Positions 39,895 through 51,873 of a stretch of 64,000 nucleotides of DNA are shown one piece after another (the first letter of the stretch is position 1; every line of letters begins with the position of its first letter). Origin of the DNA: Victivallis sp. Marseille-Q1083 (lineage in GTDB: Bacteria; Verrucomicrobiota; Lentisphaeria; Victivallales; Victivallaceae). The stretch spans positions 1,054,001-1,118,000 of the forward strand of contig NZ_CAHJXL010000001.1 of assembly GCF_903645315.1 (NCBI RefSeq), given 5' to 3'. Under the pieces are notes generated by a model that was not told the DNA's origin, ran no database searches, and was given only the letters and a program-made list of their open reading frames with translations. A program made the translations under genes and the position numbers.

Positions 39895-39947
39895 TCTCTG
39901 CGCCGCCGCCCCGCGGATTTCGTTCAACAAACGGCAGCGTTCACGGC
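39895..39947. repeat. Repeat copy 2: decayed permease 3' end
   Basis: Direct repeat of 37762-37815. The core 39910-39947 has one mismatch in 38, while the upstream part carries 1-bp indels that break the reading frame, so this copy is not under coding selection as permease. The GH2 stop codon (39943-39941) lies inside it. Confidence 0.85.
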
Positions 39948-42730
39948 AAAACCGCCGGCAACGGACCAGGCGCCCCAAGCGGCACCGCACGGCCGGCAAT
40001 TCCGGCGTCGTCAAGCCCCGGCGAAACCGCCGTCAACGTGAAACGCCCGACCTCTCCGGTGGACTGGAGGATGACCAGCGCTTTGCCGTTGAAAGCCCGA
40101 CGCCGCCAGATTCCGCCGTCGGCCTGATAACGTTCCCAACTGGCGGCATTGCCATTATCCACGCCGACGATTTTCGCGGCTCCGGCGACCGAAAAAACGA
40201 CCGGATTATCGGCCGTCGGCACCGGATTCCCCCCGGCATCGAGAATTTCAACGGTAACATAAGCCAGATCACGGCCATCGCTGTCGATTTCGGCCCGATC
40301 AATCGTCAAACCGATCCGTCGGGCTTCGCCGGCCGTCGCCACGGCATCGCGGGCAATTTCCTGACCGGCCGCATCGAAAGCCACGGCGGTCAAACGGCCC
40401 GGCCGATACGGCAGCAGCCACTCCAAATACAATTTATCGGGCTCTTCGCCGTTCACCTGATAGACGACATTTTCCCCCCTTTCGTTCCGGTACGGCATAA
40501 TTTCTGCGAAATGCTTCCTGCCCAGCGATTCCCCCAAGCCTGCGGCGGCATTGCCGGCCGGTTGGAAAAATAATTCCACTGCGGCGGCGTTGGAATAAAC
40601 GCGCACCGGTATTTTTCCGTCCACCAGCAGTTTGGCCCGCAGTTTTTCATCCTCCCAGTTCCAATGCGGCAGAATATGCACCATCGGATTCTTTCCGGCA
40701 CTGGTCCATTGACTCTGGTACAAGTAATAATCATCCTTGGGAAAACCCGCCGTGTCGACAATGCCGAAATAAGAATTCTTCGGCAGCGATTCGAACGACT
40801 GATTCCATGGCGTCGGTTCTCCGAGATAGTCGAAACCGGTCCAGACGAACTGGCCGGCGACGAATTTGCGATCCCGATCGTAAATCCAGGATTCGCCGGC
40901 AGTCCGCCCCCATTCGACGGCCGAATTGTCGTAAGATGAAAGCTGGTAAGGATCAATGCCGGAGGCGTTATCGCTCTTTTGCGGATCCGAGTAAAATCCC
41001 CTGCTCTTGACAGCCGACGAGGTTTCCGAACCGTACAGGCACATTGCCGGATAAGCGGCGTGAAGCGCATCGTAACGATTCTCCGAGTAATTCAACCCGA
41101 CGACATCGAGCTGCTGAAGAGTTTCCAGAAGAGCGCCGCCCAGATTGTCGGTCCGGTCGGCCCCGTCGCCGCGCAATTTATCCTCCGCCAGCGTAACCGG
41201 CCGCGTGGGGTCCGCCGCCCGGGCGACAGCAACAAGCAATCGCGCCGTTTCGGTTCCCCCGGCCGTAGCCGTACTGATGTCGTTGTTGATTTCATTGCCG
41301 ATCGACCACATGATGATCGAGGGGAAATTTTTTCCCCGCGCCACCATCGCCGCCAAGTCGTATTCGGCCCAGGTTTCCCCGGCGCGGGCAGCCGGCACAC
41401 GGGCGCGACAATCGGGAACCGGCCGGCTGAAAAAACGACCGTAATCGTAGGCTTTTTTCCCCCGTTCCACCCCCCAGCAGTCAAATCCCTCTTCGACCAT
41501 CAGCAGACCGAGCCGGTCGCACGCCTCGTGCAGTTCCTCCGAAGCCGGATTGTGCGTGGAACGAATCGCGTTGACGCCCATCTGCTTCATAATCTGCAAT
41601 TGGCGTTCGACCGCCCGGTAATTGGACACCGCCCCCAGCGCCCCCTGGTCGTGATGCAGACAAACGCCATGCAATTTCAGCCACTTCCCGTTCAGCGAAA
41701 AGCCGTCATCCGGGTCGAATTTGAACCACCGGAAACCGAAACGGCTGTCACAGGCATCCACAACTCGATCGCCATCGAACAATTCAGAACGCAGGATGTA
41801 TAAAGCCGGCCGGTCGGCCGCCACGCTCCAGAGTTCGGGACGTGGCGCCGCTAACGCCTGCCGGACTTCCATCGCGGCACCGGCCTCGACCGCGAACGGT
41901 CCGGAACTGACCGGCGCAACGAACACCGAGCCATCGCACTCTTTCAGAATGGTCGTGCGCAAAGTGACACTCCGGTCCGACGCCTGCCGGTTTTCAATCC
42001 GGGTTCCGACTTCGACGGAGACAGGCATCCCGCGCCGGTATTCCTCCTCCAGGTCCGGCGTTACACCCGTACCGCCGTAGCGCGCCACCTGACCCGGCTC
42101 GACCGCCGCAAGCGTGACGCCACGGTAAATGCCGCTGCCGGAATACCACCGGCTGCTGCAACGGTCGCTGTCACCGGGTTCGGTCCGGTTGACCGCCCGC
42201 ACGGCGACCACATTTTCCGTGGCGCCGTCGCAATTCACTTCATCGGTAATATCGTAGCAGAACGGAATATAACCGCCGGGCCGCGTCCCGACCAGCCGGC
42301 CGTTGACATAGACGGCACTGTCCATATAACCCCCGCCGAAATCGAGTAGAATCCGTTTGTCCCGCAGCGCTTCCGGCAAGATGAAACGCTTCCGGTACCA
42401 GCCGACGCCGCCCTTCAAATGGCCGATCTCACCGGTGACGTCATGGGAAAAATCCAATTCGATGCTCCAGTCATGCGGCAATACGACCTCCCGCCAGCCG
42501 GAATCATCATAATCAACCTTCGCCGGCCTCTCTTCCCGCACCGCATCTTCGAAACAAGGATCGGCGGCAAGCTGAAATTTCCAATGGTCGTTAAACGGCA
42601 CTTGCAGCCGCCCCGCTTCCGGCCAACCGGCGACGACCGAAGCAACGACGCCCGGTTCCCCCGCCCTTCCGCCGGAAAACGCGCCAAGCACGGCTCCCAG
42701 CATCACCAATCTTTTAAGGCGCTTCATCAT
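39941..42730 (-). CDS. Secreted glycoside hydrolase family 2 (beta-galactosidase-like)
   Basis: 929 aa with signal peptide. Domain order is as in GH2: sugar-binding jelly roll (LPHDWSIE, WYRKRFILPE, residues 60-210), Ig-like domain, TIM barrel (KLHGVCLHHDQGALG, AIRSTHNPASEEL) and C-terminal Ig-like domains (about 790-900). The acid/base is E480 in MWSIGNEIN and the nucleophile E569 in CLYGSETSS. Likely substrate is a beta-linked galactoside or related sugar. The promoter is at 42798-42826. The extreme C-terminus (PLGAPGPLPAVLP) runs into the permease-tail repeat and may not be the ancestral end. Confidence 0.93.
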   Translation of the reverse strand: MMKRLKRLVMLGAVLGAFSGGRAGEPGVVASVVAGWPEAGRLQVPFNDHWKFQLAADPCFEDAVREERPAKVDYDDSGWREVVLPHDWSIELDFSHDVTGEIGHLKGGVGWYRKRFILPEALRDKRILLDFGGGYMDSAVYVNGRLVGTRPGGYIPFCYDITDEVNCDGATENVVAVRAVNRTEPGDSDRCSSRWYSGSGIYRGVTLAAVEPGQVARYGGTGVTPDLEEEYRRGMPVSVEVGTRIENRQASDRSVTLRTTILKECDGSVFVAPVSSGPFAVEAGAAMEVRQALAAPRPELWSVAADRPALYILRSELFDGDRVVDACDSRFGFRWFKFDPDDGFSLNGKWLKLHGVCLHHDQGALGAVSNYRAVERQLQIMKQMGVNAIRSTHNPASEELHEACDRLGLLMVEEGFDCWGVERGKKAYDYGRFFSRPVPDCRARVPAARAGETWAEYDLAAMVARGKNFPSIIMWSIGNEINNDISTATAGGTETARLLVAVARAADPTRPVTLAEDKLRGDGADRTDNLGGALLETLQQLDVVGLNYSENRYDALHAAYPAMCLYGSETSSAVKSRGFYSDPQKSDNASGIDPYQLSSYDNSAVEWGRTAGESWIYDRDRKFVAGQFVWTGFDYLGEPTPWNQSFESLPKNSYFGIVDTAGFPKDDYYLYQSQWTSAGKNPMVHILPHWNWEDEKLRAKLLVDGKIPVRVYSNAAAVELFFQPAGNAAAGLGESLGRKHFAEIMPYRNERGENVVYQVNGEEPDKLYLEWLLPYRPGRLTAVAFDAAGQEIARDAVATAGEARRIGLTIDRAEIDSDGRDLAYVTVEILDAGGNPVPTADNPVVFSVAGAAKIVGVDNGNAASWERYQADGGIWRRRAFNGKALVILQSTGEVGRFTLTAVSPGLDDAGIAGRAVPLGAPGPLPAVLP

Positions 42731-42953: not shown

Positions 42954-45293
42954 TCACTCGGCGGCATGCTTCAGGATCACCCGGTCGATGAAAACGTTGT
43001 CGACCCCGTCGGAAATCGTCGGCGCCATATAGAGCCGGACGCCCGTCCCCATCGGCAAGGTCGCCAGTTTGATCCAGTGGTAATTGCCGGAAATATCCTT
43101 CAATTTGAACTGCTGCTGATGGTCCTTGTCGTTGCTGCCGTCATAAACTCCGATCAGCATGGCATCGCTTTCCGGATCGTTCCCCTCGCCGCGAATGCTC
43201 GCCCAGACCTCCCAGCGATTTTCGACCGCCGGGAACCAGTTCGCCAGCATTCCCGGCAAATCCAGCAGAAACGCCCAGGAAATATGATTGTTCGGCATCC
43301 GCACCGCGACGCCGTACGGCGACAGTGAATCCGCTTCACGGATATTCTTGACGCCCGGCTGCAACAAGGTCAAATCATCGGCCGAAAACTCGTACCAGGC
43401 CGCGTCATCCAAGCCGCGGCAGAATTCCGGCACTTCGCCGGACCGCTTCAGCCGCGCCGGACCGCCCAGCAGTTTCGGCATCAGTTCATAAAACGCCGCA
43501 ATCCGGGTAATTTCATTGAAGTCGACCACGTTATTCCGCTGCAACGTCGCTTTGACTTCTTCCCACAATTTCCACAACCGCTCCCGTTCTTCCGGCGTCA
43601 AAGCCGGATTCCAGGCCGAGGATTCCGGCCGGTAAAGCAGCGCAATGTCATAAGGCAGCCGGGCCCGGCGCAGCCGTTCGCGGCAAACCGGTCGCTGTTC
43701 CTCCGGCAGCGCCTCCAGCGCCGCCGCTGCTTCGTCGAACCGCCGGAGCGCCTGCTGCAGCGTTTCCATCGACAGCCAGTCGTTGGCATCGGCCCGGTAG
43801 CAGCCGAGCGGTTTGCCGCTCCGTTCGAATTCCGCCGCCATCAGGTCGATGACCTCCAGCAGCTTGTCGCCGGCTTCCGGCGAATAGTAGCCATGCAGGA
43901 ACTCTTTTTCGAGTTCGCGCTGATCGAGATAGGGATTCCACAGCAGATGGGCGACCACCCAGGCGCGCATCTGGATGAATTCGCCGCAATTCGAGGTGCC
44001 GATATCGCCCTGGGCGAAAACGAATTCAACGTTATTGTCGGCAAAGAGCCGGAGATTGGCGCCGAGCGTCCGGATGTTCGGATGCGGAATCAGATAATTG
44101 CTGAAATTGGAGTTGTAATCCCAGATTCCCAGCCGGTCGGCCAGCTTCCGCCAGTTGAGCAGATCGTCGCGGAACGCCGCATTGGCTTCCGAGGCGTAAG
44201 GCCGGGAAAAATCACACAGATAAGGACAGAGCCGGATCAGCACATTCCGGTGAACGTCCGCATTCACCGGCGGCTTCTGGGAGTAGACGTACGCCAGTGT
44301 TTCGATGACCACGTCGGGAAATTCCGATTCGATCGCCGCGGCGACGGCGTTGACCGCCTGAAGGATCGGGCCGGCCGGCGAACCGGTCTCCTCCTCGACG
44401 GCGGCACAGCGTTCGCAGCGGCAGCGCACCCAGCCGTCCATCTGGCTGATGGATAGAATTTTAACGCCGGGATGTTCGCGCAGGTAATCCCGGGTCTGCC
44501 GGATCAACTCCTGCTGCATCGCCGGTTCGCTCCAACAGGGCTGCTCGGCGGTGCGCTTGCCGGCTTCATCCAACGCATACCACTCCGGATGGGCCTCAAA
44601 ATAGCGATCCGGCGGCAGCAGCGCCAGAATGGTATGAACGAACCCCGGATTCAGCGCCACATGGCCGCCCCACTCCTCCGGAATTTCCTGAAAATGACCG
44701 TTACTCTTCAATTTCACGGCAAACGGCACGAAATCCGGGTGGTAGTTGACCTGATAATAGTGCGCTTCCCGGCTGAAAAACTGCGGCGCGTAGCAGAACG
44801 ACAGCTCATCCGGCACCGCCAATTCCCGCCGTTCCGGCACCAGCTCCTCGGTCGGGCTCCACCAGCGGACGCCCCAGTAATCCTCCAGCAGCGTGTAAAC
44901 CGCGTACAGCGTGCCGCGCGGCCGGGCGCCGCTGACGACCAGCGTATCGCCGAACGTTTTGAGAATAACCGCGTCGTCCTTGTCCAGATATCCGGCTATT
45001 TCCGGCCGGCCCTCCAACCGCCGCAACGCCTCCGGCGAACGGCCGACCAGGATATTGCGCCCATCCGGCTGCGCTTCGCCGACGACCGGCAAAGTCACGC
45101 CGGACAGCAGTTCGATATATTTCTGCAACTCCCGCGCCGCCGTCTTCTCCGCCAGAATCGCCGTTTCATCGACGACAATCCGGTAATCGCTGCGACCGTC
45201 AACCGTCAAATCCAGTCCGCTCGCACTCATCGCCACCGCCAATCCCACCACCGGCAGCAGCCGGCGCATCCAGTTCGTTCGTACCGTTCCCAT
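42954..45293 (-). CDS. Secreted DUF4838-family protein (alpha-glucuronidase-like fold)
   Basis: 779 aa from ATG 45293; an upstream extension to 45386 and a downstream ATG at 45269 are alternatives, the latter giving a compact signal peptide MRRLLPVVGLAVAMSASG. It is a full-length paralogue of the protein at 11623: N-terminal GH67-N-like domain (DYRIVVDETAILAEKTAARE, VSGARPRGTLYAVYTLLEDY), DUF4838 core with CRCERC, and a C-terminal beta-sandwich (RMPNNHISWAFLLDL). It is the last gene of the AraC-linked operon, 126 bp after its pseudopilin. Substrate unknown. Confidence 0.85.
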   Translation of the reverse strand: MGTVRTNWMRRLLPVVGLAVAMSASGLDLTVDGRSDYRIVVDETAILAEKTAARELQKYIELLSGVTLPVVGEAQPDGRNILVGRSPEALRRLEGRPEIAGYLDKDDAVILKTFGDTLVVSGARPRGTLYAVYTLLEDYWGVRWWSPTEELVPERRELAVPDELSFCYAPQFFSREAHYYQVNYHPDFVPFAVKLKSNGHFQEIPEEWGGHVALNPGFVHTILALLPPDRYFEAHPEWYALDEAGKRTAEQPCWSEPAMQQELIRQTRDYLREHPGVKILSISQMDGWVRCRCERCAAVEEETGSPAGPILQAVNAVAAAIESEFPDVVIETLAYVYSQKPPVNADVHRNVLIRLCPYLCDFSRPYASEANAAFRDDLLNWRKLADRLGIWDYNSNFSNYLIPHPNIRTLGANLRLFADNNVEFVFAQGDIGTSNCGEFIQMRAWVVAHLLWNPYLDQRELEKEFLHGYYSPEAGDKLLEVIDLMAAEFERSGKPLGCYRADANDWLSMETLQQALRRFDEAAAALEALPEEQRPVCRERLRRARLPYDIALLYRPESSAWNPALTPEERERLWKLWEEVKATLQRNNVVDFNEITRIAAFYELMPKLLGGPARLKRSGEVPEFCRGLDDAAWYEFSADDLTLLQPGVKNIREADSLSPYGVAVRMPNNHISWAFLLDLPGMLANWFPAVENRWEVWASIRGEGNDPESDAMLIGVYDGSNDKDHQQQFKLKDISGNYHWIKLATLPMGTGVRLYMAPTISDGVDNVFIDRVILKHAAE

Positions 45294-45419
45294 ACCGTCA
45301 ATCGAATTCCTTTCCAACCGGCCCCGCTGCAGGACGGCCCGGCTATTCCAAGATTCAGAAAGCGCCGGCATTGCCGGCGTTTCCATATATCTATATCAAT
45401 GAATCAAAGGTTACAGTTT

Positions 45420-46184
45420 TTACAGCCAGCTCGGCCACAACAGCGTGCCGTCACCGGTGTTGTACGGAGCCCAATATTTGGTGACCGAATCAAGTTGCAC
45501 AGCCGGAATTGATTCAACATGCCCGTCAAGGATTGCCGCATTGACTTTATTGTTGTGACGAGCATTCGGTTGATAGAAGCTCAATTCACGCAACGGATAA
45601 CACCCTCTATCGAAACTCAGGAAATAAGAAGGCGCCCACGTCCCGGTCGCATTCTGAACAATTTCAGTCGGCGTTGCATCAGCAGACCAAACCAAATTGG
45701 TAGTGTTGCCGAAGCGGTCGAAATCCGATAATTTATGCGGGGTATAATAAACATTTGTCCAAGAAGTAACGCCGAAGCTGTTCATATTAAGGCCATAACT
45801 ATAGTTGGCCATGTTCTTCAACAGGTCATCCTGGCTCACAATACCCTTTTCCGAAGAAGGGCATTCATACAATTCAGCGGCGAATCCGTAATTGTCAATC
45901 AGTTCCCAACCCCAGACCCGGGTACCTTCCCCACCCCAGGGATTAATTCCCGTAAATTCGGCCGGCATGCACCAGTCGTCATTGTCATTCTGATAGAACG
46001 CGTGCCCCAGCCCGAGCTGTTTCAGATTGCTGACGCATTTGATCGCCTGCGCCGCCGCTTTGGCCTTGCCCAGGGCCGGCAGCAACATGCTGGCCAGAAT
46101 GGCGATGATCGCGATCACGACGAGCAGTTCGATCAAGGTGAAATTCCTTGACGACCAACGACATTTCTCGATGTTTCTTTTCAT
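45420..46184 (-). CDS. Pseudopilin (prepilin-type N-terminal methylation domain)
   Basis: 254 aa. The leader is longer than usual ([14 protein letters not shown]), then [20 protein letters not shown]. The C-terminal part ends [17 protein letters not shown] and [18 protein letters not shown], nearly the same as the pseudopilin at 50952, its closest relative in the window. It lies between two DUF4838 genes and 34 bp after the upstream one. Both paralogues sit behind the same AraC-type promoter. Confidence 0.9.
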
Positions 46185-46218: not shown

Positions 46219-47166
46219 TTAAAACTGATTCAACGATTCGCAATAGTCCAGCAGTTCACGATCGCCGTAGGTATCGAAATACTCACCGTCCATATAGACC
46301 GCAAACGTGGTGAAACTGTCGATGCCGAGCTGGCGGTAGGCGCGCAAATCGCGGCGGATGATCTCCGGCGTCGTCTCCGGCTTCTTCGCCGGCTTGCGCC
46401 AGTTGCTGAACAGTGAACTGTCCAGCCAGTATTCCAGGATGTGGGTGGTGGCCGGATCAAACACCTCCAGCAAATCCAGCAGCGCCTGCCAATGGCGGCG
46501 GTTCACGCAACAATCCGCATCGTCGATGGCGTGACGGTAACAGCGGTTGAACGGCGCATATTCGAGAAACACGTTGCCGGCCGGCTGGACCCGCCGCGGC
46601 CGCTCCATCGTCGAACAATAGGCCAGGAACGCCACCTGCGCTTCCGGATCGAACTGGCGCAGTTGCCCGGCCATCGCGTTGACGCTGAGCAGGTACTGTT
46701 CGGCGTCGGACAGCGCGGCGCATTCATCGCAATGGCACCAACTGCTGACGGCGGAGTCCTCGCCCCAGAAGAAATGCCGGTGGGTCGACGGCGCCAGCTT
46801 TTCTCCCAGCGACCGGGCGCAGTTGCCGACCACGCCGAGCGCTTCCGCCCGGGCGGAACACCAGTTGCCGTTCGCCGACCGCTCCTTCGCCCGGAACGGC
46901 TGGATGAAATACTCCGGATGGCTCGTGAAAAGATTGCGCGGCATCAATTCCTGCGACACGTGCAACTCATATTCATAATCGATGCCGGCAGCCCGGAGCC
47001 GCTCCCGGAATTCCGGCTCGATCGTTTTGCCGAGCACGCCCAGCACATCATGGGCGGCGCCGCCGCCGGAATGAATGCCCAGCGTATTCAATCCCAGCGA
47101 CTTCATTTTGGCCACCCAGTCCACCCCGATCAGATCGGACGGGGTAATTACCACACCTTTTCGCAT
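46219..47166 (-). CDS. Short cytoplasmic DUF4838-like protein
   Basis: 315 aa, no signal peptide. It corresponds to the DUF4838 core alone: SHPEYFIQPF, a WGEDSAVSSWCHCDECAALS block with the CxCxxC cluster (about residues 140-155), LAYCSTMERPRRV and ILEYWLDSSLFSNW. It lacks the N-terminal GH67-N-like and C-terminal binding domains of its two paralogues, and lacks an export signal, so it may act on an imported oligosaccharide. It is first gene of the operon divergent from the AraC regulator. Confidence 0.75.
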   Translation of the reverse strand: MRKGVVITPSDLIGVDWVAKMKSLGLNTLGIHSGGGAAHDVLGVLGKTIEPEFRERLRAAGIDYEYELHVSQELMPRNLFTSHPEYFIQPFRAKERSANGNWCSARAEALGVVGNCARSLGEKLAPSTHRHFFWGEDSAVSSWCHCDECAALSDAEQYLLSVNAMAGQLRQFDPEAQVAFLAYCSTMERPRRVQPAGNVFLEYAPFNRCYRHAIDDADCCVNRRHWQALLDLLEVFDPATTHILEYWLDSSLFSNWRKPAKKPETTPEIIRRDLRAYRQLGIDSFTTFAVYMDGEYFDTYGDRELLDYCESLNQF

Positions 47167-47227: not shown

Positions 47228-47287
47228 ATTATACCAGAAATCGCGGTTCAAAACCATATAGAGAATGAGCAAAAGATGAGTATTCTG
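47228..47287 (-). promoter_or_regulatory. AraC-type promoter and operator (copy 1)
   Basis: Read on the minus strand: a 19-bp box CAGAATACTCATCTTTTGC (47287-47269), ATGGTTTT (47257-47250), GATTTCT and TATAAT (47233-47228), 60 bp in all, with no -35 consensus. Placement about 40-70 bp before the transcription start fits activation by an AraC protein. The box overlaps the first codons of the AraC gene itself, so autoregulation is possible. The same layout recurs at 51814-51873. Confidence 0.8.
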
Positions 47288-48112
47288 CGCAAATTTGAAT
47301 TATTTAACGAAGAATGTGTCGTCGCGTTGGAAAATGAAGGCGATTCCCGACTCTATATGCCGCTTTGCGGGATAACCCGCTGTTTTCCCGATTACCACAT
47401 TCGCCGGACCAACTCCTGCGAATGCATCATCGAAGCCATCGTCAGTGGTTCCGGCCTGTTTCAAATCGGCAAAATGGAGTACCATCCCAAAGCCGGTGAT
47501 GTATATATCGCTCACCTCGGCAGCGACCATTACTACCGCACCGACCCGCGGAATCCCTGGGTGAAAATCTGGTTCAACCTGCGCGGCAGCCTGGTCGAGG
47601 AGCTGCTCCGCAGCTACCATCTGGACAAAGTCAATTACCTGCCCGGCTGCCGGCTCGAAAAGCTGTTCGAGGAGTCGCTGGAAACCATGCGCCGGAACCT
47701 CGACCAGCCTCACGAAACCGCCACACTGGTCGCCCATCGCCTGATCTATCACCTGGCCCGCTGCGCCGCCACCACCGACGCCCCCCGGCAGCCGGAAGCC
47801 GAAGAGATGAAGCTTTACCTCGATCAACGGCTGAGCGGCAGTTTATCGCTGCAGGAACTCGCCAGGCTGATCGGCCGCTCGCAATCCCAATGCCGGCGGA
47901 TTTTCAGCCAGGCCTACGGCGTCTCGCCCTACCACTATTTTCTGGACCGCAAACTCGAACTGGCCAAACTGATGATTGAACGCGACAACAAATCCCTGAA
48001 GGAGATCGCCGCCGAACTGGGTTTCGCCGATCCCTATTATTTCTCCAATTTGTTCAAGAGCCGCTACCACATTTCGCCGTCCTCACTGCGCAAACGGCAC
48101 GGCAATTCCTGA
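47276..48112 (+). CDS. AraC-family transcriptional regulator
   Basis: 278 aa. An N-terminal cupin sensor (FQIGKMEYHPKAGDVYIAHL, WVKIWFNLRG) is followed by a C-terminal AraC double helix-turn-helix: SLSLQELARLIGRSQSQCRR, then LKEIAAELGFADPYYFSNLF, about residues 180-275. Such regulators usually sense a sugar and activate adjacent catabolic operons. It is divergent from the DUF4838-pseudopilin operon and next to the GH3 operon, both carrying a shared operator. A longer start at 47183 is possible, but the operator and weak AGAG site favour 47276. Confidence 0.9.
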   Translation: MSILRKFELFNEECVVALENEGDSRLYMPLCGITRCFPDYHIRRTNSCECIIEAIVSGSGLFQIGKMEYHPKAGDVYIAHLGSDHYYRTDPRNPWVKIWFNLRGSLVEELLRSYHLDKVNYLPGCRLEKLFEESLETMRRNLDQPHETATLVAHRLIYHLARCAATTDAPRQPEAEEMKLYLDQRLSGSLSLQELARLIGRSQSQCRRIFSQAYGVSPYHYFLDRKLELAKLMIERDNKSLKEIAAELGFADPYYFSNLFKSRYHISPSSLRKRHGNS

Positions 48113-48170
48113 GATGCACGCCGTCTTGCGCCGAAGCGCGCCGTGAGCGCCCGGCCAAATCGCGGCGGGT

Positions 48171-50909
48171 TTATTCTTTGCCGGTTTTCAGGATCAATGT
48201 CAAAATCCGTTTGGCGCTGCGCTCCAGCTCCGGCCTCGCCAGCCTCCCTTCGGCGAGCGCCGCACGGAGACAGTCCGGCACGCCGGCCGGCATCTTGATA
48301 TCGTTTCCGGCCTTGATTTCCCGGTCATGCCGGGAATTGTTGCCCCAGTCCGTCATCACGACTCCGGTAAAATCCCACTCACCGCGTAAAATACCGGTCA
48401 GCAGCTCATCATTTTCCGCCGTTTCCACTCCGTTGAGCAAATTATAAGACGACATGATGCACCACGGTTCCGCCTCTTTGACGGCAATCTCGAACCCCCG
48501 CAGATAAATTTCCCGAGCCGCCCGTCCGGACAGCCGGCTGTCGGCCCGCAGCCGGTTTTTCTCCCGGTTGTTGGCGGCCAAATGCTTCAAGGTCACACCG
48601 ATGCCGTGACGCTGGACACCGCGCACCATCGCCGCGGCGATTTTACCGGTCAGCAAAGGATCTTCGGAGTAGTATTCGAAATTCCGGCCGCACAGCGGAA
48701 AACGGTGAATGTTCATCCCCGGCGCCAGCCACAGATCGACGCCGTTGTATTTCGCCTCTTTCGCCACCGCCGCCCCGACCGCTTCAACCAACGCGACATC
48801 CCATGAACTGGCCAGCAGCGTCGAATTCGGCCACTGGGTCGTCGTCAGGCCGCGACCCAGCCGGACACCGGCCGGCCCGTCGAATGTTTCCAGCGCCGGC
48901 ACCCCGAAGGCTTCCAGGCCGCCGATCGTGCCGGTGCCGCCCCAGACATTCGGCTCATGGCCGCCCACCAGCCAGATCAAATCCTCATCGGACAACTGCG
49001 CGACAAATTCATCCAGCAATTCCGGCTTCTGCCGCAATTCTGCGAACATGACCGGCCGGCCGCCGCGCTCCTGCGCCTGACGCCTGACGCCGCTTGCCGC
49101 GACCGGCCATCCGGCGCAGGCTAATAATTTCTCCCGGTAAGCCGTCGGCGCGATAAGAAAATAGTCAAGGTTGGGACAATATCCTTTCGTCGTCAGCTGC
49201 AATTCGACCCGGCCGGCCGGCAGTTCAATTTCCACCGGTTCGAGATCGATGAACTCATGCCACTGCCCCGGCGTCGCCGGGCTGGCCACCGTGACATTCT
49301 GAAGCCGGCCATTGACGGCAATTTCCAGCGCATCGGCAATCGGTTCGGCGTTACCGTTGGCGCCGCGCAACCGCAACAGGTAACGGCCGCCCTCTGCCAC
49401 CTCAAGCCGATAAATCATCTTCCGGCCGGCATCGGGCCAGCCGGCCACGCAGCAGCCGCTTTCACCGGACGGCCGGTAGAAATATTCCAGCCAACTGCCG
49501 CCAGTCAATGCCGCATAGTCCTCCGCCTCCACCCGGGTACAATCATCCGGCCGGACCGGCAGGCAGGGCGGCGGCGGCGGCGGTTGAACCGGCAATTGTT
49601 CCATCGTGCCGTCAGCCAACAGCCGTTCGGGCAATTCCTTCGGCGCCAGATAGCCGGTCAATTGTTCCGTCACCGCCAGCGACTCCCGGCGATGACAATA
49701 GATTTGCCGCGCCGCCGCATCCCATGACGAACTGCCCAGATAAATCCGGTAATCGCCAGCTTCGAGCAGCCGGCAATGGCGATGACCGCTGTGTCCCTGG
49801 TCGTCATAGGCGGCCATTTGAGCGACCGGAAACCGAAGCGGGATCTTTTCCGCTTCACCGGGAGCCAATAATTTTGTTTTGGCAAACGCAGCCAATTCCA
49901 GCGCCGGGCGTCCCAGCCTTCCCGACGGCGCCGCGAAATAAAGCTGCACAACTTCCCGCCCCGGCAAGCCGCCGCAATTGCGAACCGTCACTTCGACGGC
50001 GATTGCACCGTCCTCTTCTGCGGCCGACCAATCGTCCAAGACAAATTCAGTATAGCTCAAACCATGACCGAACGGGTAGCGAATCAAGCGGCGGGCCGGG
50101 TCGAAAGTGGCAAAATAGCGGTACCCGACGAAAATATCTTCCGTATAATCGACATGGTCGTCAGACGCGGCAAACCCGTCGGCGCCCGGATAAGCCGCCA
50201 GCGAAACCGCCCAGCTATCGGTCAGTTTGCCGGACGGATTGACCAGGCCAAGCAAGACGTCCATCACCGCCGGACCGCCTTCCATGCCCGGCAAACCGGC
50301 GAACAGCACGGCATCGATCCGGTATTCGTCGATCCAGTTCGTGTCGACAATGCCGCCGACATTCAGCACCGCAATCACCTTCCGGAAGCCGGCTTTGGCC
50401 AGCCGCTCCAACAGCCGGCGCTCCGCCGGCGCCAACTGATAATCGCCTTCCCCCGGCGACCGGTCGTCGCCCTCATGCGAATTGCGGCTGAGGACGAACA
50501 GCGCGACATCGGACCGCTGCCGGACTTCGGCAAGCTGCCCGTCGGTCAGCTCCACGGCGGGATTGGCCAGATACCACTGCGCCAAAGCAGTATCCAACTG
50601 CAAACGGCCCTCCGCCCGGGCGGCAAAAGCCGCCTGCAGCAGATTGGTCGCATAAGCGACCGTGACATCACCGGAACCGAGCCCGCCGCGGACGAAATCG
50701 ACCTGCCCGCTCCCGAAAATGGCGACGCGGTCGCCTTCCTGCAACGGCAAAGCCCGGTTCTCGTTTTTCAGCAGCACCATCCCTTCGGCAGCGGCCCGGC
50801 GGGAAAATTGCTCATTTCCCGGATAGGGTTCCGCCGCCAATTCAAAGCTCGCGCGGCAAAAGGTCAAAATTACCATTGCTCCACAAATTCTTCTCATCCA
50901 CTGTTTCAT
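48171..50909 (-). CDS. Secreted GH3 beta-glycosidase with permuted domains and internal CBM
   Basis: 912 aa with signal peptide. Domain order is reversed from common GH3: first the alpha/beta-sandwich (GMVLLKNENRALPL, residues 43-56, to about 250) and the fibronectin-like domain (YPFGHGLSYTEF, about 285-400), then a CBM6-like module (CTRVEAEDYAALTGGSWLEY, about 460-590), and last the TIM barrel (GPAGVRLGRGL, GVTLKHLAANN, nucleophile Asp in VVMTDWGNN near 855). All catalytic blocks are present. It is 42 bp after the pseudopilin and in its operon. It should remove terminal beta-linked sugars. Confidence 0.9.
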   Translation of the reverse strand: MKQWMRRICGAMVILTFCRASFELAAEPYPGNEQFSRRAAAEGMVLLKNENRALPLQEGDRVAIFGSGQVDFVRGGLGSGDVTVAYATNLLQAAFAARAEGRLQLDTALAQWYLANPAVELTDGQLAEVRQRSDVALFVLSRNSHEGDDRSPGEGDYQLAPAERRLLERLAKAGFRKVIAVLNVGGIVDTNWIDEYRIDAVLFAGLPGMEGGPAVMDVLLGLVNPSGKLTDSWAVSLAAYPGADGFAASDDHVDYTEDIFVGYRYFATFDPARRLIRYPFGHGLSYTEFVLDDWSAAEEDGAIAVEVTVRNCGGLPGREVVQLYFAAPSGRLGRPALELAAFAKTKLLAPGEAEKIPLRFPVAQMAAYDDQGHSGHRHCRLLEAGDYRIYLGSSSWDAAARQIYCHRRESLAVTEQLTGYLAPKELPERLLADGTMEQLPVQPPPPPPCLPVRPDDCTRVEAEDYAALTGGSWLEYFYRPSGESGCCVAGWPDAGRKMIYRLEVAEGGRYLLRLRGANGNAEPIADALEIAVNGRLQNVTVASPATPGQWHEFIDLEPVEIELPAGRVELQLTTKGYCPNLDYFLIAPTAYREKLLACAGWPVAASGVRRQAQERGGRPVMFAELRQKPELLDEFVAQLSDEDLIWLVGGHEPNVWGGTGTIGGLEAFGVPALETFDGPAGVRLGRGLTTTQWPNSTLLASSWDVALVEAVGAAVAKEAKYNGVDLWLAPGMNIHRFPLCGRNFEYYSEDPLLTGKIAAAMVRGVQRHGIGVTLKHLAANNREKNRLRADSRLSGRAAREIYLRGFEIAVKEAEPWCIMSSYNLLNGVETAENDELLTGILRGEWDFTGVVMTDWGNNSRHDREIKAGNDIKMPAGVPDCLRAALAEGRLARPELERSAKRILTLILKTGKE

Positions 50910-50951
50910 ATCTTGCCTTTTACCGTTTTTTTCAGTGCCTGCCGGAAAATT

Positions 50952-51710
50952 TTACAGCCAATTTGGCCACAACAGCTTGCCATCGTAATTATACGGCGCC
51001 CAATATTCACTGACCCAATCGACCTGTTTGTAATGGATCGATTCGACATGGCCGTCGAGAATGACCGCATTGCATTTCTGCGCGCCGCCGTGACGGGCGA
51101 CAATCTGGTAAAATTTGTTGCCGGAATACGGATAGACTCCGTGGTCGAGCTGCATGAAATAAGAGGGCGCCCAACTGCCGGACACCTTCTCCTGCACCGA
51201 TGTCGGCAACGTATCCCCCGCCCACATCAGCTTCGAAACCGCTCCGGGAAAAGCGTCGAAATCGTTCAGCTTGTGCGGCAGGAACCAGCCATCATACCAG
51301 GTGTTGAGGCCGAAACTGTTGCGGTTGACGCCATAACTGTATTCGCCGTCGATCAGCAGTTGATCCGCATCGGCGGCATTCGATTCGGCACTCGGACAAT
51401 TAAACGAGTTGAAGCCGAAACCGTAATTGCCGATCAATTCCTCGCCCCAGACCCGGCAATTGTTGCCTTTGGCGCACTCTCCGGCGATCTCCGCCGGCAA
51501 CACCCAGTTGTCGTGGTCATTCTGGTAAAAGGCGTTCCCCAAGCCAAACTGTTTCAGATTGTTGACACATTTGATCGACTGGGCGGCAGCCTTGGCCCGC
51601 CCCAACGCCGGCAGCAGCATACTGGCCAGGATGGCGATGATCGCGATCACCACGAGCAGTTCAATCAAGGTAAAATTTTTCCCTGAACGGTGACAGACTG
51701 GTAACATCAT
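50952..51710 (-). CDS. Pseudopilin (prepilin-type N-terminal methylation domain)
   Basis: 252 aa, [20 protein letters not shown] with the methylation motif. The C-terminus ([30 protein letters not shown]) and internal [13 protein letters not shown] make it the closest paralogue of the pseudopilin at 45420. It is the first gene of the operon with GH3 and is preceded by the second copy of the AraC-type promoter. Confidence 0.9.
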
Positions 51711-51813
51711 TTTTCATTGTTTCCTTTTGCATCTTCTTCGAAAGCGCTGCAGCACTTCCAGTTTTCCCGGGATTCGAACCGTATTGTGCGTATCCGCAAA
51801 ACTTCTTATGATA

Positions 51814-51873
51814 ATTATATAGAAATCATGAGGCAAAAACCATGTGATTTACGCGCAAAAGATGAGTATTCTG
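51814..51873 (-). promoter_or_regulatory. AraC-type promoter and operator (copy 2)
   Basis: Minus strand: CAGAATACTCATCTTTTGC (51873-51855), ATGGTTTT (51843-51836), GATTTCT and TATAAT (51819-51814), again exactly 60 bp. The 19-bp box is identical to copy 1 while the bases between elements have diverged, as expected for conserved protein contacts. Confidence 0.8.

Follow-up and report, generated by a model that had tools for sequence, protein, structure and literature searches.

We identified a promoter element that is shared by two operons of the window (the whole 64-kb stretch of DNA that was analysed) and by two further promoters of the same genome, and with good confidence we consider it to be the operator of the AraC-type regulator encoded at 47276-48112, which is predicted to activate all four promoters. 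An earlier note on this DNA had proposed a small regulon under the linked AraC from two copies of the element; the genome holds four (c1-c4), and such a regulon remains the best reading in view of the -10 spacing, which is fixed at four of four strong genomic sites, and of the conservation of the element next to the araC orthologs of four further genomes. In the open-access literature, we found neither a described operator for a regulator of this bacterial group (probably the Lentisphaeria) nor a paper on this regulon.

Both copies in the window lie on the minus strand. The 19-bp box CAGAATACTCATCTTTTGC, proposed to be identical at the two places, is indeed so (47287-47269 and 51873-51855) and was found nowhere else in the 64-kb window at up to three mismatches; its expectation in shuffled sequences was 0.01, and two occurrences were seen in none of 100 shuffles. 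The shared block is longer than this box, forming a 23-bp core TTTGC[GA]CAGAATACTCATCTTTT (consensus TTTGCrCAGAATACTCATCTTTT) at 47293-47271 in c1 (TTTGCGCAGAATACTCATCTTTT) and at 51879-51857 in c2 (TTTGCACAGAATACTCATCTTTT), with 22 of 23 positions identical. A -10 element TATAAT follows 37 bp after the core in each case (47228-47233 for c1 and 51814-51819 for c2), and box through TATAAT spans exactly 60 bp in both copies, in agreement with the length given earlier. When the two promoters were aligned without gaps, they agreed over TTTGCnCAGAATACTCATCTTTTGC, ATGGTTTT and TATAAT and were dissimilar elsewhere, and the flanking DNA was at the background level of identity. With regard to ATGGTTTT, which had been reported at the same offset in both copies, this part holds for c1 and c2, but the motif is not general: only its AT is invariant over the eight copies compared below, and it is read as the end of a putative second half-site. 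The copies aligned from other genomes lack GATTTCT, which had been suggested as one more shared element and resembles AT-rich spacer.

As had been noticed, the beginning of the araC gene overlaps c1: the ATG at 47276 lies inside the copy, and the strand opposite to the c1 core forms codons 1-6 of the gene. The 278-residue product (plus strand) is the proposed binding protein. It combines an N-terminal AraC-type cupin (AraC_binding, residues 30-160, E 5e-14) with a C-terminal double helix-turn-helix (HTH_18, whole model, E 1.5e-19), and by these predicted domains it is an AraC/XylS-family transcription factor with the features of the sugar-sensing branch. The genes downstream of c1 and c2, all on the minus strand, were assigned to operons from strand and spacing. 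Operon 1 comprises a short DUF4838 protein (46219-47166, 315 aa, Pfam E 3.4e-15), a pseudopilin-like protein with a prepilin N-terminus (45420-46184, 254 aa) and a DUF4838 protein of 810 aa (42954-45386, E 1.3e-88); a GH2-type beta-galactosidase-like gene (39941-42730; NCBIfam GalB, E 2e-199, below the cut-off at 664 of 900 bits) possibly forms its end. Operon 2 starts with another pseudopilin-like gene (50952-51710, 252 aa), and both pseudopilin-like proteins matched N_methyl just below and TIGR02532 above the cut-off. Its second gene (48171-50909, 912 aa) encodes a GH3 enzyme which, according to the domain search, has a swapped domain order, the C-terminal GH3 domain (residues 44-286) preceding the N-terminal one (669-905). 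To the right of operon 2 there is a divergent BNR-repeat, sialidase-like gene; its control by the same element had been raised as a possibility, but nothing in the sequence ties c2 to it.

Searching the whole genome at up to three mismatches gave four sites, all located on the same 3.9-Mb contig. The two outside the window are c3 (C1:274918-274983), whose -10 element TATACT lies 37 bp after the core, and c4 (C1:3543338-3543404), with TATAAT at 38 bp. Far from lying at random positions relative to -10 elements, the four boxes thus keep spacings of 37, 37, 37 and 38 bp. Downstream of c3 is a gene for a 262-residue CBM9 protein. The genes downstream of c4 encode a pseudopilin-like protein and a DUF4838 protein, followed by a protein of 948 residues whose sole match, to GH123, is sub-threshold. 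Three sequence-only profiles were used to examine the membership of these copies. Profile R1 was built from seven sequences including all four genomic copies, and its recovery of c1-c4 (next match at E 0.125) is circular, since the copies had trained it. Profile R2, made of c1 and three orthologous araC promoters with c2-c4 left out, ranked c1, c3, c4 and c2 first (E 4e-14, 5e-8, 3e-6 and 1e-4, respectively; next 0.09). Because profile R3 contains only four foreign promoters, c3, c1 and c4, which it ranked first (E 4e-6, 8e-5 and 9e-4), were recovered without any letter from their own genome. An unrelated-looking promoter at C1:1821275 came fourth (E 0.009), and c2 was fifth with the core alone matched (E 0.72); the case for c2 as a putative member is that it is nearly identical to c1.

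A loose pattern of the box plus TATAMT had 11 matches in the genome vs one in the control, and of the seven matches beyond c1-c4, six were rejected as they lacked the upstream half of the core. The site at C1:1700169-1700218, where TTTGCACAAAG stands before TCATCTTTG, has a core three bases short and was missed by the profiles; this near miss, whose TATAAT lies immediately in front of a frame for a secreted phosphatase-like protein, may be a site that has decayed or a variant of it. The best match of an early degenerate pattern (C1:523726) had no -10 element in place and was discarded. As a separate observation, ATAGGAATGCTCAACTTTT occurs in more than 20 identical copies across the genome (for example, at C1:256244-256262) and is perhaps part of an insertion element.

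Copies of the window AraC with at least 50% identity were present in 4 of 61 genomes, namely its own and those designated G023 (57%), G081 (53%) and G033 (53%), and a protein search added a fifth ortholog (54%) in Lentisphaerae bacterium ADurb.Bin242 (G100). G081 belongs to another family of the order. Outside Clostridia, the five closest named relatives bear the labels Lentisphaeria, Victivallales, Lentisphaerae, Victivallaceae or Verrucomicrobia, and the DNA of the window is therefore probably from this group. R1 sites with E below 1e-6 were confined to 4 of 99 genomes, the same four that carry such an AraC copy, although this co-occurrence is not independent, as R1 had been built with all four of these promoters and site and gene overlap. 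The ADurb.Bin242 site was outside R1 and is the best match in that genome (E 2.9e-8). In all four relatives the core overlaps the araC start codon and the gene facing araC encodes a short DUF4838 protein (Pfam E 1e-15 in G023, 2e-12 in G081, 3e-20 in G033 and 1e-15 in ADurb.Bin242, with 3e-15 in the own genome), and in three of them the -10 element is kept at 37 bp. The AraC proteins of the own genome, G023, G081 and G033 align gaplessly from residue 1 (MSI.R), and therefore the operator overlaps coding sequence at c1; in G023 and G081 the frame has no possible start before the araC ATG, and the frame is open further upstream in the own genome, G033 and ADurb.Bin242. As the sites of the orthologs extend into coding DNA, constraint on the protein could account for some of their conservation. 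No match to the window AraC follows the letters of c2, c3 or c4, so that at these copies conservation of the DNA is separated from that of the protein; around c4, a stretch of 20 kb had no such match at E 1e-3. A single strong site was seen in each of the four relatives, and a dispersed multi-operon regulon is shown in this genome only; extra candidates in G081, G023 and G100 (E 0.001, 0.002 and 0.9, respectively) were by other genes or had an incomplete element and were not counted.

It should be noted that the genome contains at least 41 AraC-like matches, and a second AraC or a global factor, rather than the linked regulator, might bind the same sites. A different, distant AraC gene (24% identity to the window AraC) is located about 1 kb from c3. 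Set against this, the site and this AraC subfamily are found together at one place in five genomes, and the closest paralog of the regulator lies next to a site of equal geometry that is spelled with other letters. This paralog (41% identity; G000:C1:2414391-2415227) diverges from a pseudopilin-like gene and has a short DUF4838 gene two genes on. Its promoter, TTTGCAATCATCGTCCATTT TTTGCATGATTCGGCCATTT, is a 20-bp repeat in which 15 of 20 positions recur; TTTGC-N10-CAT is present in both units, and TATAAT follows at the distance seen in the window copies. The inner letters of its half-sites differ, which suggests a separate specificity. Binding by some other regulator is thus unlikely, and the linked AraC is the preferred candidate.

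To define the anatomy of the element, we compared eight copies, that is, c1-c4 and the orthologous araC promoters of G023, G081, G033 and ADurb.Bin242. Fifteen of the 23 core columns are invariant, and the -10 element lies 37 bp after the core in six copies and 38 bp in one; the G023 ortholog has no good -10 element at 37 bp. The first half-site is TTTGC-N10-CAT. Within the 37-bp spacer just two columns are invariant (two such columns have a frequency of 0.0011 in shuffled spacers), and they form an AT pair that sits 20 bp from the AT of CTCAT (21 bp in c4). A matrix of the first half-site, applied to the sequence after the core, reached its best summed score at 20 bp, and none of 2000 shuffles attained this value when the eight copies were pooled. 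Single copies scored above zero in only three of eight cases (c2 9.4, c3 11.2 and c4 1.4), and the second half-site of c1 alone scores -5.4; c1, c2, c3, c4 and G033 peak at 19-20 bp (c1 and G033 with negative scores), and the peaks of G023, G081 and ADurb.Bin242 are elsewhere. A second half-site in direct repeat, 20 bp from the first, is therefore likely on the pooled score, the candidates in the window being 47256-47273 for c1 and TTTGCGCGTAAATCACAT at 51842-51859 for c2 (both minus strand). It would end 22 bp before the -10 element, at the -35 slot. A consensus promoter scan revealed no consensus -35 paired with the -10 of the element at any of c1-c4, as the earlier note had maintained for the window copies; the scan gave no sigma-70 promoter with a -35 at c1, nor any promoter at c3 or c4, and c2 has one weak, shuffle-level match on a different -10.

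Class II is the term for AraC-type promoters activated from a site at the -35 slot, and the arrangement found here agrees with it in these respects: the site adjoins the -35 slot, the -10 element lies at 37-38 bp in seven of the eight copies, and there is no -35 consensus. We propose that a ligand-bound AraC dimer would occupy the first half-site and its putative direct repeat (TTTGC-N10-CAT with a period of 20 bp), which together cover about -72 to -34 relative to the transcription start (assumed to be 7 bp after the -10 element), and would contact RNA polymerase at the empty -35 slot. The predicted targets would be DUF4838-pseudopilin-DUF4838, perhaps with GH2, for c1; pseudopilin-GH3 for c2; the CBM9 protein for c3; and pseudopilin-DUF4838-948-residue protein for c4. 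Binding by the window AraC and activation of these promoters are both inferred from the layout of the DNA, and the inducer would presumably be glycan-derived. Negative autoregulation of araC may also be expected, since c1 covers its start codon. The same position makes c1 well placed to block araC transcription, and it may be asked whether AraC binds as a repressor throughout, or represses araC only, with the operons activated by a different factor. However, activation is what would be expected of a site that ends at the -35 slot when the promoters have no consensus -35, and we regard either alternative as quite improbable.

The degree of identity among c1-c4 differs between zones of the promoter: over the six pairs it amounts to 19-22 of 23 positions in the core and 5-6 of 6 in the -10 element, compared with 16-23 of 37 in the spacer and 12-24 of 60 in the flanks. 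We regard it as very improbable that the box is a remnant of shared ancestry and not a working site, left when pseudopilin operons were duplicated along with the promoter and the initial araC codons. In favour of such a history, the genes behind c1, c2 and c4 encode related pseudopilins (57-69% protein identity), and each copy would spell MSI if read from its own ATG. Against it, identity is 83-96% in the core, with the spacing retained, vs 67-73% in the pseudopilin DNA and background values in the flanks, and the gene behind c3 encodes a CBM9 protein. Copying may have been the route by which the site spread; selection would be needed to keep it. Returning to activation by the linked AraC, we lean, by a modest degree, towards the idea that one stretch of DNA serves both as operator and as codons 1-6 of the regulator, that it has been kept across two families of the order with N-terminus and site locked to each other, and that its spread to three promoters in this genome has produced a dispersed glycan regulon.

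The proposed arrangement can be compared with known systems. At E. coli araBAD, AraC likewise uses adjacent half-sites beside the promoter (I1-I2), and activation from them has been described (PMC3711423, PMC4486848). Residues 39-275 of the window AraC match most of the NCBIfam model of E. coli AraC (PRK10572, E 3.5e-20), but the score of 72 bits lies below the cut-off of 208, and it is accordingly not classed as the arabinose-AraC equivalog. The E. coli half-sites have a 21-bp period and a poor -35 at the promoter, whereas the likely period here is 20 bp, and one operator lies in the araC start codon, unlike E. coli AraC at araBAD. RhaS, XylR and similar proteins are AraC-type regulators divergent from a sugar-use operon with the operator in between. 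The window regulator is likewise divergent from its proposed target with the operator in between, but here the operator recurs at three other promoters of the contig, one of them close by (c2) and two distant (c3 and c4), and the predicted targets include pseudopilin-like and DUF4838 genes. The layout of the regulon is usual for the AraC family; what stands apart is that c1 forms the first codons of the regulator. Many genomes of this group have at least 20 AraC-like matches each, and pseudopilin-like and DUF4838 genes were found next to several of the AraC genes that we inspected. The half-site rule and the four-promoter regulon make operon membership testable, and the regulon would tie pseudopilin and DUF4838 genes to GH3 and CBM9, perhaps also GH2, under one presumed signal.

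We also examined the pattern across the order. The grammar TTTGC-N10-CAT-N42-TATAAT was written after inspection of the paralog, and its genome count, three exact matches (c1, c2 and the paralog), is therefore descriptive; at up to two mismatches, there were 55 matches in this genome vs 34 for the reversed pattern. In 137 genomes of the order, 21 exact matches were found in 17 genomes vs three for the reversed pattern. Six of the 21 fall in a single conserved protein-coding stretch, and only the three of the own genome and one of G033, as opposed to the other 11, are tied to an observed araC promoter; the grammar failed as an order-wide marker. The box by itself, at up to three mismatches, gave 155 matches, spread over 65 of 100 genomes including the own, and the reversed pattern gave 37. 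None of the 30 foreign loci examined was near an AraC gene (three were near a pseudopilin gene), and the foreign matches were treated as unrelated; the fourfold excess over the control stands as a point against the main reading.

Among the weaker profile matches in relatives, 9 of 26 loci examined were near an AraC or pseudopilin gene. The best of all these matches, in G058, G088, G053 and G069, look like related operators of other such genes, and the rest look like noise. Two loci (G088:C31 and G069:C55) have GCGGAwAATCCTCATGTTTT before TATAAT beside another AraC-like gene, which suggests sister regulators with variant sites. At a third locus (G053:C35), an AraC-like gene and a pseudopilin-like gene diverge, and TATAAT is preceded by a site of the ACACATCTTTT type; this layout equals that at the araC described here, and the AraC subfamily is different. 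Finally, upstream of distant homologs at three loci (L051, L059 and L060), frames of 5-6 codons (MSNLD, MCNID and MCNLDK) were noticed by eye near the likely AraC start, and translational coupling is possible there.
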